Of a stretch of DNA of 64,000 nt, positions 41,616 through 43,956 are shown piece after piece. Each line of letters begins with the position of its first letter. Within the stretch, counting starts at the first letter, position 1. The notes under the pieces are model-generated. The model ran no database searches and was not told where the DNA came from. It saw nothing but the letters and a program-made list of their open reading frames with translations. The stretch covers positions 62,001 to 126,000 of the forward strand of contig NZ_CVTD020000016.1 in NCBI RefSeq assembly GCF_002904165.1, in the 5' to 3' direction. This stretch comes from Herbinix hemicellulosilytica (lineage in GTDB: Bacteria; Bacillota; Clostridia; Lachnospirales; Lachnospiraceae). The position numbers and the translations under genes are program-made.

Positions 41616-42779
41616 TTATAAATCAAGAAGCCTTCTTACATTCAAAAGTCCCCATCCCTGCTTTTCCCATTTTTCACCCAAATCTACCGCACTGTTTCTG
41701 AGCCTTAGTTTTACTTCACGGTTGGTAAGCCATGGATATGCAGACAAAAGCAAGGCAATTGCACCTGAAACCACCGGTGTAGCCATTGAGGTTCCGCTTT
41801 TTATCGTATACATCATAGGAAAAGATTCGCTTATAAATTTTGGGGTACCCATTCTGCCTTTAGTTGCCAAACGATTAGTGTTACAGGAAATTATGTTGGA
41901 GCCGGGAGCCACAATATCAGGTTTTTTTATGCAATATGGAGTCGGTCCTCTGCCCGAATAATTTTTGGTTTTAGAGCCGAATACTTCCACTGACATATTA
42001 TCATCGGAAGAACCTACCGTAATTACTTTCCTACTGATTCCCGGAGTAGATATAGTCATGGGTTCTGGCCCGTTATTTCCTGCCGCAACCACAACTACAA
42101 TCCCACTGTCCCAAACCGCATTTACTCCCTGTACCAGCAGTGAATTCTCATCCAGGCTTTCTTTAGCGGTAGTTCCTACACTAACGTTTACCACCCGTAT
42201 ATTATATTTCTTCCGATTATCAATGATCCACTGAAGTCCCGCAAGGACATCAGATATATTGCCGTCTCCTTTATGATCAAGGACCTTAACGGCAATCAGA
42301 TTGCATTTGGGTGCCACTCCCATATATTTGCCCTTTGATGAATATCCGTTTCCTCCGATAATCCCGGCAACATGGGTACCGTGCCCGTTGTCATCATATG
42401 GTTCTGTCCTGGCATTTACAAAATCCTTAAAGGCAATAACCCTGTTTCCGCCTTCGGTAAAATCCCTATGAAGGCATATTCCGGTATCTACTATTGCAAC
42501 CCCTATCCCTTCTCCGTAGATCCCTCTTTCATGGGCCCACTTAGTTTCGATTATATCGTTAACCCTATTCATCTGAGCGGTTATATGGGCATCAAGCTCA
42601 ATATCAATCAGCCCGTCCAGCCCTTTTATCAAATCAAGTTTGCTTTTTTCTACTTCAAGAACATAAGCATCTATCATGGGTAATTTATATTTTATGTGTC
42701 CAAACTCTTCTAATGCTATCCGCCTGCTTTCATAATCCTTACAATGAACTATAATTTGTATTTTATTGCTTTCTTTCAT
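41616..42779 (-). CDS. Subtilisin-like serine protease (S8), AprX-like, no signal peptide
   Basis: Serine endopeptidase with the full catalytic triad: Asp102 in AIVDTGI, His140 in GHGTHVAG, Ser335 in SGTSMATPV, and oxyanion Asn in AAGNNGP (numbers from the TTG at 42791). Residues ~10-75 resemble an I9-type pro-domain. No signal peptide, as in cytoplasmic AprX. Preferred ATG 42779 is five bases after GGAGT. First gene of an operon with two glycosyltransferases, an unusual partnership; a role in maturing a glycosylated or surface product is conceivable but unproven. Confidence 0.92.
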   Translation of the reverse strand: MKESNKIQIIVHCKDYESRRIALEEFGHIKYKLPMIDAYVLEVEKSKLDLIKGLDGLIDIELDAHITAQMNRVNDIIETKWAHERGIYGEGIGVAIVDTGICLHRDFTEGGNRVIAFKDFVNARTEPYDDNGHGTHVAGIIGGNGYSSKGKYMGVAPKCNLIAVKVLDHKGDGNISDVLAGLQWIIDNRKKYNIRVVNVSVGTTAKESLDENSLLVQGVNAVWDSGIVVVVAAGNNGPEPMTISTPGISRKVITVGSSDDNMSVEVFGSKTKNYSGRGPTPYCIKKPDIVAPGSNIISCNTNRLATKGRMGTPKFISESFPMMYTIKSGTSMATPVVSGAIALLLSAYPWLTNREVKLRLRNSAVDLGEKWEKQGWGLLNVRRLLDL

Positions 42780-42950
42780 GCAAAACTCCAATCGTTTTTT
42801 TATTATCCTATTCCGACAGCTTACCCAATATTCTAATCACATTTAATTCGTTTTTTGTTTCCAAAAATATCTATGATTTATTATAAAAACAGGAAATCAG
42901 TCAAGCTGTCTGTCATATGATACAGTGTAATTAATATTAGGAGGAAGTCT

Positions 42951-43169
42951 ATGAGTGATTTAGCAGCTACTCATTGCGACCGTGGCGTCGGCGGATTCAA
43001 TGACTGCGGATGGTTAATCCTGCTGATTATCCTGATTTTGTGTTGCTGCAACAACAATAACGGTGTATTCGGAGGAAGAGATTGTAACGGTGATGATAAT
43101 TGCGGATTCCTTATCATCATTATCCTTCTCATCCTCTGCTGCTGCAACAACAACGTTTTCGGCTTCTAA
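42951..43169 (+). CDS. Cysteine-rich small membrane protein with internal duplication
   Basis: 72 residues, AGGAGG seven bases upstream. Two similar units: Cys-Gly then ~10 hydrophobic residues then CCCNNN and VFG (residues 19-41 and 51-71), separated by a polar linker; ten cysteines in all. The start MSDLAATHC resembles short high-cysteine proteins annotated in Lachnospiraceae as 'chorion class high-cysteine HCB protein 13' (recall, not searched). Each unit could span or dip into the membrane, with the CCC triplets binding metal or carrying lipid. Role unknown; possibly spore- or envelope-related. Confidence 0.8.
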   Translation: MSDLAATHCDRGVGGFNDCGWLILLIILILCCCNNNNGVFGGRDCNGDDNCGFLIIIILLILCCCNNNVFGF

Positions 43170-43192
43170 TACGGGACAAAAAAAATTCTTTA

Positions 43193-43241
43193 AAAAAAGC
43201 TGTCAAATCGTAGCACAGCTACGATTACGGCAGCTTTTTTT
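43193..43241 (+). terminator. Terminator of the cysteine-rich protein gene
   Basis: Long stem AAAAAAGCTG...CGTAGC / GCTACG...CAGCTTTTTT with a three-base loop, 23 bases after the stop codon. Confidence 0.9.
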
Positions 43242-43320
43242 ATAATATTTACAAGTTATGATTATTAACCGAAGATATAATTTGTTTAGCCTAAATCAAA
43301 TTTTATGATATAATGTACTA

Positions 43321-43404
43321 ATCTTTAGCGGTATTAATATTTTACTTTATAAAAAAATGTTGCGCAGGCTGAAGTTTTTATACTTCAGTCTGCGCAGCTT
43401 TTTA
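43321..43404 (+). ncRNA. Candidate small transcript ending in a strong terminator
   Basis: TATAAT at 43309-43314 (poor -35) precedes an AT-rich ~40-base segment and a strong hairpin TGCGCAGGCTGAAGT / ACTTCAGTCTGCGCA (43361-43396) with a T-run. No protein gene precedes this terminator once the previous one at 43241 is counted, so either a small RNA or a second, redundant terminator. The 250-base gap contains nothing else I can name. Confidence 0.3.
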
Positions 43405-43492: not shown

Positions 43493-43702
43493 TTATATTA
43501 AACGTTTTCTGTTTCTTTTTAACCGTTCCAAACATTCCCTGTCTATTTCATATATTGTATTCTCTTCTATAATTAAATCATCATCGCTCTTTCTGCCTGA
43601 GGTTTCTCTATGCCCGGGACGGTTCGTGTTTTTATAATTTCCTTCATCCCTTGTATATCCGTATCCGTAATAATAACGAGGATAATTATTATGATTATCC
43701 AT
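43493..43702 (-). CDS. Small hypothetical protein with Tyr/Gly-rich head
   Basis: 69 residues from the ATG at 43702 (GAGG six bases upstream; GTG at 43714 is possible). N-terminal half is polar with YYYGYGY, reminiscent of spore-coat or surface proteins; the C-terminal half DDDLIIEENTIYEIDRECL followed by a basic end looks like a conserved motif. No signal or membrane segment. Lies alone between the cysteine-rich protein and aroC. I do not recognise the family. Confidence 0.6.
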   Translation of the reverse strand: MDNHNNYPRYYYGYGYTRDEGNYKNTNRPGHRETSGRKSDDDLIIEENTIYEIDRECLERLKRNRKRLI

Positions 43703-43956
43703 CTTAAGCCTCACAGTTTTATTGTCATTTCAGTATATGATTAATTTTTTACAAATGTCATTAAACCGTTGAAACAGGATAAGATTTCCTTTATACTATG
43801 AGTAAATATTTTCGCCGATGCTTAAAATAAATTTTCTGAATGAAAATTTATTTATCGACATCAATAATATATAAAGCAGAAATATTGCCTATTATTGTCC
43901 CGTTATTATGATAAAGATTTCAATAATGCATAAATTACAATATTGGAGTGATAAAA

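Follow-up and report, generated by a model that had tools for sequence, protein, structure and literature searches.

Organization of the locus

The window, a stretch of 64,000 nucleotides of the Herbinix hemicellulosilytica genome (contig NZ_CVTD020000016.1, positions 62,001 to 126,000), contains a small gene for a Cys-rich protein between a divergent protease gene and a second small conserved gene. The features of the locus are summarized in Table 1. As claimed in an earlier note made from the sequence alone, the protein has 72 residues, ten cysteines (positions 9, 19, 32–34, 45, 51 and 63–65 of the translation) and two duplicated units. Local alignment of residues 1–42 with residues 43–72 scored 103, whereas 2000 shuffles of the halves averaged 28 and never exceeded 63; the internal duplication is beyond chance. 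The ribosome-binding site and the terminator described in that note are also present; a simple terminator scan did not list the hairpin at 43191–43242 and listed a second one, at 43359–43398, instead.

Table 1. Coordinates of the genes and predicted signals at the locus (window numbering).
Feature	Position	Strand	Remarks
Gene for the 72-residue Cys-rich two-unit protein	42951..43169	+	N-terminus MSDLAATHC; units are residues 19–41 and 51–71
Ribosome-binding site, AGGAGG	42939..42944	+	5' of the Cys-rich gene
Intrinsic-terminator-like hairpin, then T run	43191..43242	+	−28.1 kcal/mol, z −9.2; directly 3' of the Cys-rich gene
CATATGATA, putative conserved −10 box of mother-cell sigma type	42914..42922	+	CATANNNT in 36/37 diverse members and 18/18 of the window lineage
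GGAAAT, in the place of the −35 box	42892..42897	+	GGAAAC or a different AC 15–17 nt before CATA (sigma-K type) in most diverse relatives; AT in the window lineage
CAAGC, conserved promoter-spacer element	42902..42906	+	CAAGC or ACAWGC in 25/37 diverse members
Second small conserved gene, no Pfam or NCBIfam match over the cut-off	43493..43714	−	C-terminal motif DDLIIEENTIYEIDxECxERLKR; syntenic
AC-N17-CATATACT, putative sigma-K-type promoter of the second small gene	43732..43758	−	In the window and 14/15 relatives where the gene was located
S8 (subtilisin) protease gene, divergent	41616..42791	−	PF00082, E 2e-52
ATATTGGGTAAGCTGTCGGAATAGGAT, sigma-E-like putative protease promoter	42805..42831	−	ATA −35; −10 is AATA, not CATA; weak, pattern loosened after viewing the window site

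The Cys-rich gene is present as a single copy in its own genome, which rules out a multi-copy or repeat artefact. A contig scan identified 17 close relatives, each of which shares the N-terminus and has two units. Comparison of the window gene with each of these relatives gave pS values of 0.49–0.85 and pN values of 0.18–0.29, with a pN/pS of 0.30 over all pairs; therefore, the gene is real, conserved and under selection as a protein. Within the first ten codons of the same sequences, pN is 0 and pS is 0.36, with no amino-acid change. A spurious open reading frame at 42951–43169 is ruled out by this conservation. A mobile element was considered and rejected, with no match to the protein among 72,556 plasmid and 50,697 phage records.

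Membership of a known family was ruled out by sequence and structure searches. The protein has no match over the cut-off among Pfam-A and NCBIfam profiles, which include coat families and tiny sporulation proteins. A sequence search of the PDB returned chance-level matches only (best E 0.18), and a fold search of the PDB returned nothing with E < 0.001. The AlphaFold model of the protein contains helices at residues 19–31 and 51–66 but has a mean pLDDT of only 49.7 and gives no usable fold; the segments could equally well form a strand-rich stack.

The protein family in Lachnospiraceae

Homologues were sought in 250 genomes of the Lachnospiraceae rank, one per genus; the rank was assigned from named relatives (Herbinix, Lachnoclostridium) and taxonomy. 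A single-sequence search matched 107 of these genomes with E allowed up to 1; many weak matches are due to chance, and distant matches above about E 0.01 include such cases. The 45-row profile A1 gave matches in 157 genomes at E up to 0.01, a count that includes matches by construction, since some rows of the profile derive from the searched genomes. The profile search for the paired motif suggested in the earlier note has thus yielded homologues with the duplicated motif.

Residues M1, D3, L4, A6, T7, C9 and C32 are invariant across the 45 rows, and 53 of 54 distinct members start with MSDL[ATSE]AT. Beyond the near-invariant MSDLxATxC N-terminus, the protein consists of Gly/Asn/Cys linkers around two Cys-capped hydrophobic runs of 8–13 residues. 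The 54 members contain 7–19 cysteines (median 12) in 64–80 residues, and none has a lysine. The CCCNNN-VFG unit of the earlier note needs a small correction for the family as a whole: CC or CCC is followed by Gly or Asn, not always by NNN, and VFG is not conserved.

Two genomes (G127 and G195; loci L224 and L225) encode members of 97–99 residues, missed by the profile, in which long additional Cys-Gly stretches separate the N-terminus from the first hydrophobic run; the linker before this run seems free to grow. Another genome (G024, locus L107) carries the gene twice, with about 8 kb between the copies. The whole locus is also present in a record labelled Anaerolineaceae (L035, SHOH01000001.1), where the protein is close to those of Clostridiales metagenome-assembled genomes; this is probably a mis-binned contig rather than a transfer.

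In 53 of 54 members there are two hydrophobic runs of 8 or more residues (8–13 with Cys, Ala and Trp counted), and the longest run without Cys is 7–10 residues in all 54. None of these members has a hydrophobic segment that reaches about 18 residues. The earlier note described the runs as just long enough to enter the membrane; at 8–13 residues they are short for a membrane-spanning helix. These dimensions bear on a possible role as a small sporulation membrane protein, in which the runs would insert as a short hairpin in the outer forespore or mother-cell membrane and the protein would aid engulfment or late membrane changes, not the coat. The median best 19-residue hydropathy of the 54 members (2.07) lies in the range of weak transmembrane segments, and the two hydrophobic segments are modelled as helices, with low confidence. 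However, the runs are short for spanning with or without Cys, Ala and Trp, the flanking lysines usual in small membrane proteins are absent, and the pressure to retain the Cys clusters is strong. We regard this membrane role as unlikely.

Metal binding through the CCC and Cys-Gly clusters, with delivery of copper, zinc or iron-sulphur to the spore or redox buffering in germination, would be in keeping with the high cysteine content and with the general affinity of CC/CCC clusters for soft metals. However, the spacing and number of the cysteines vary freely between relatives, some of which gain extra CGC stretches, and a metal site would fix them. Among the cysteines, only C9 and C32 are invariant, and the neighbourhoods of 20 loci show no conserved metal transporter gene. 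Such a role is improbable.

Promoter of the Cys-rich gene

Upstream regions were compared for 37 diverse members and for the 18 sequences of the window lineage, with the window counted in both sets. A CATANNNT block at about −40 is present in 36 of the 37 diverse members (shuffles: mean 5.0, maximum 12) and in all 18 of the window lineage (shuffle mean 4.1). Its sequence is that of a −10 box of the mother-cell (sigma-E/sigma-K) regulon. The sigma-E and sigma-K promoters of C. difficile are described as having a common −10 and differing in the −35, ATA versus AC, with the AC located about 16 nt ahead of the −10 (PMC3789822). The AC form, AC-N15-17-CATANNNT, occurs in 28 of the 37 diverse members (shuffles: mean 0.72, maximum 4), with a spacing range of 15–17 that was chosen after viewing the sequences. 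The ATA form occurs in only two of the 37 and in none of the 18, and the gene does not have a sigma-E pattern.

A control with real genes gave a similar contrast. Among 297 unrelated open reading frames of the same 20 loci, the AC and ATA forms were found six times each; the Cys-protein members in these loci have the AC form in 15 of 20 cases and the ATA form in none (p 4e-17 versus 6/297 for AC). A neighbouring gene family, X110, shows the reverse, with the ATA form in 8 of 13 cases and the AC form in none. Therefore, two mother-cell promoter types can be distinguished, and the Cys-rich gene appears to carry the late one. Transcription by the mother-cell sporulation RNA polymerase with sigma K is the most likely reading of these upstream sequences. 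In the window lineage (the window plus 17 close relatives), AT takes the place of the AC −35 (AC in 0/18), which counts against a simple sigma-K assignment in this lineage; there, sigma K rather than sigma E is suggested by the −10 box and by homology of position.

The conserved spacer element (CAAGC/ACAWGC) is reminiscent of SpoIIID sites. A promoter regulon defined by CAAGCN{6,9}CATANNATA in the genome of the window was considered and rejected: three sites were found versus two for a reversed control, and the two sites other than that of the Cys-rich gene are located ahead of or within genes that have no obvious connection. Additionally, a AAGCTGTC stretch is common to the spacers of the protease promoter (42805–42831) and the Cys-protein promoter (42902–42922), and may be the site of one regulator.

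Co-occurrence with sporulation genes

SpoIVA was found over the cut-off in 160 of the 250 genomes. The uncorrected comparison with profile A1 gave 151 genomes with both, 6 with the Cys-rich protein only, 9 with SpoIVA only and 84 with neither (phi 0.87). A follow-up search of the 15 discordant genomes for SpoIIIAE was positive in 12, including five of the six with the Cys-rich protein only. Three of the nine SpoIVA-only genomes (G127, G195 and G198) do have a member, which came to light when the N-terminus was sought as a DNA pattern and the profile was run with a lax threshold; the member in G198 starts with MSDLTNGCG. The corrected table contains 159 genomes with the gene and sporulation, 1 with the gene alone, 6 with sporulation alone and 84 with neither (phi 0.94), and leans towards agreement because the re-check covered the 15 discordant genomes only. 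The gene is thus present in almost all spore formers and, with one exception, missing from relatives without sporulation. One genome (G092, 460 contigs) has the gene, and neither SpoIVA nor SpoIIIAE was found in it. Three of the six sporulators without a found member are less than 80% complete; since these six exist, the protein does not seem to be needed in all sporulators.

Kinship was allowed for with an rpoB tree, for which 80 genomes were requested, 75 matched (no match in G001, G030, G034, G066 and G109) and 70 were used, five being left out for worst-scoring or split matches (G018, G043, G051, G115 and G199). The discordant genomes outside the tree are G146 and G170, which were not requested, and G018, G030 and G115, which were dropped. 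Because G018, G115, G146 and G170 are sporulators without a found member, their omission favours the sporulation reading; in other respects, discordant genomes are over-represented in the tree set. The tree implies at least 17 changes in sporulation. For the eight independent contrasts on well-supported branches, the corrected data gave 6.6 with the gene following sporulation, 0.0 against and 1.4 with no difference (median p 0.016). The corresponding values were 6.1, 0.1 and 1.9 before correction (median p 0.031), and 4.4, 0.3 and 3.3 when sporulation was coded by SpoIVA alone (median p 0.125). Co-loss of the gene and sporulation recurs on the tree. Multiple distinct losses of sporulation within Lachnospiraceae have been reported (PMC8340488).

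These results also bear on the possibility that the gene has a role outside sporulation and that its distribution tracks sporulation through shared ancestry or habitat only. The small number of well-supported contrasts and the median p under SpoIVA-only coding are in its favour, but the corrected contrasts run 6.6 to 0.0 and the promoter evidence is independent of the distribution. This explanation is very improbable. Among the interpretations offered in the earlier note, that of a spore component is strongly supported by the co-occurrence with sporulation genes and the sporulation-type promoters, whereas metal binding and a membrane assembly gained no support, the runs being short and the AlphaFold model poor, and are the less likely options.

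Neighbouring genes

The 17 close-relative loci, some of which end at contig ends, contain homologues of the S8 protease in 16 cases, of aroC in 15 and of the second small gene in 16. The start region of the protease does not look like a signal peptide. The loosened pattern for its promoter gave 14 matches, two of them off-register (L036 and L041), and none in two of 16 loci. Conservation is lower in the wider neighbourhoods (20 loci and the window), where the protease gene is found in 8 of 21: it lies beside the Cys-rich gene in 6 of the 20 distant loci, not divergently in one, and 7–8 kb away in a seventh locus. In the same set, aroC is found in 7 of 21. The X110 family and a further small gene family (about 110 and 90 residues) occur in 13 and 8 of the 21, located 0.3–3.8 kb downstream in loci L104–L123; the window is without them.

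The invariant N-terminus ahead of variable Cys-rich repeats, together with the protease next to the window gene and most of its close relatives, could be read as a precursor of a modified or secreted peptide, with MSDLxATxC as the leader and the divergent S8 protease as the maturation enzyme. The protease is however present in only 8 of the 21 wider neighbourhoods, a count that includes the window and the locus where it is 7–8 kb away, the neighbourhoods lack a conserved gene for a modification enzyme or exporter, and both distribution and promoter are tied to spores. A peptide precursor is very improbable.

The second small gene has no Pfam or NCBIfam match over the cut-off, nor do its relatives, X110 or the further small gene. 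Relatives of it are also found near members in loci L107 and L114 and, by reading, in L110 and L119. Its promoter is of the AC-N15-17-CATANNNT (sigma-K) type, and it is a probable partner in the same programme. Outside the window, the same genome contains a type VI-A CRISPR system: a 749-residue open reading frame (contig C26 near 60.7 kb, L103) matches NCBIfam cas13A_C2c2 (E 5e-158) over the C-terminal part of the profile, and CRISPR-like repeats adjoin it.

One-unit relatives across Clostridia

In a class-wide draw of 291 genomes, profile A1 matched 58, and the matches outside Lachnospiraceae are mostly one-unit proteins of about 35–60 residues. Profile A2, built from 14 one-unit proteins, matched 65 of the 291, including matches by construction from rows taken from the same set. 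Seven one- and two-unit relatives had no curated family over the cut-off in Pfam or NCBIfam. SpoIVA was found in 61 of the 65 A2-positive genomes versus 147 of the 226 others (Fisher p 1.5e-6, kinship ignored); the 61 is a hand count from listings that includes two weak SpoIVA matches (G341 and G401). The sigma-K-type (AC) promoter form is present in 11 of 21 class-wide one-unit relatives, often as GTAACA.

Proposed role in the spore

The distribution, the promoter and the composition of the protein are together consistent with a late mother-cell sporulation protein that is placed on the forespore surface and cross-linked by disulphides, and we consider this role fairly likely. The protein is probably a building block of the Lachnospiraceae spore coat. 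Its transcription would depend on the sporulation RNA polymerase of the mother cell, with sigma K as the most likely factor. The protein would remain in the mother-cell cytosol, since it has no signal-peptide-like N-terminus and no lysine, and would be deposited on the forespore surface. The near-invariant MSDLxATxC N-terminus could act as a docking or assembly signal, and the two short hydrophobic runs, with Cys at both ends, would pack side by side between molecules. On lysis of the mother cell, the Cys clusters would be oxidized into disulphides, and the product would be an insoluble, hydrophobic coat or exosporium layer. Deposition on the forespore is the most economical reading because there is no export signal and no lysine, the Gly/Asn/Cys linkers vary in length as in structural proteins, the short runs are flanked by Cys and the N-terminal tag is fixed. 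The conservation as a protein, the confinement to spore formers and the conserved promoter type are direct results of the comparisons, whereas the expression, the forespore location, the disulphides (which are plausible), the role of the N-terminus and the use of sigma K in the window lineage are inferred.

Comparison with known spore proteins

Cys-rich outer-layer proteins are reported from several spore formers: CotY and CotZ of B. subtilis, ExsY of B. anthracis, and CdeC and CdeM of C. difficile (PMC6101409). CdeC and CdeM resemble the window protein in being Cys-rich, in having sequence repeats and in lacking a recognised domain, and CdeM has Asn-Gly stretches as the window protein does; both are made in sporulation, and disulphide cross-linking has been proposed for them (PMC6101409). 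They differ in size and composition, with 405 and 161 residues and 9% and 8.7% Cys (PMC6101409), compared with 72 residues and 14% here, and their listed repeats (NPC, CCRQGKGK, RREA, CHK; PMC6101409) are absent from the window protein, which has no lysine. CotY and CotZ of the B. subtilis crust are reported to self-assemble with disulphides, and ExsY belongs to the B. anthracis exosporium (PMC6101409); unlike these, the window protein has no Pfam or NCBIfam coat-family match. CdeC and CdeM are reported missing from Lachnospiraceae (PMC6101409), so the niche for a Cys-rich outer-layer protein would be open there. The best reading by analogy is that the Cys-rich protein works like CotY/CotZ or CdeC/CdeM while being unrelated to them in sequence.

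A wider proposal is put forward tentatively. A class-wide superfamily of "Cys-capped hydrophobic staples" may build a disulphide-locked hydrophobic layer on clostridial spores, with one unit (about 35–60 residues) in other Clostridia, and two units and the MSDLxATxC docking motif in Lachnospiraceae, where it might serve as the principal Cys-rich morphogenetic component of the outer layer, with the second small protein produced alongside it.

The YjcZ or tiny transmembrane sporulation proteins of Bacilli are likewise very small and sporulation-linked, with a Gly-rich segment followed by one short hydrophobic run; they are not known to have Cys clusters or the MSDLxATxC start. No YjcZ-type profile was matched, even with E allowed up to 10, by the window protein or by seven one- and two-unit relatives. 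Small Cys-rich Lachnospiraceae proteins that carry the NCBI product name "Chorion class high-cysteine HCB protein 13" are probably the same proteins; the name is borrowed from the silkmoth eggshell and has no functional meaning. In the literature searched, the phrase "chorion class high-cysteine" led to Bombyx work only. Searches for YjcZ with spore coat, for small Cys-rich Lachnospiraceae proteins and for signature genes found nothing, which is not proof of absence, and a literature search for a published Lachnospiraceae spore proteome found none.

Lachnospiraceae rank among the most frequent spore formers of the gut, and it is as spores that they pass from host to host. A gene that tracks sporulation almost perfectly and encodes a composition suited to cross-linking offers a handle on the make-up of the outer spore layer in this family. 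It may also serve as a marker for metagenomes, where it would tell current spore formers apart from lineages that once formed spores, and it makes it possible to ask whether a spore layer can be built from very short hydrophobic repeats capped by Cys.
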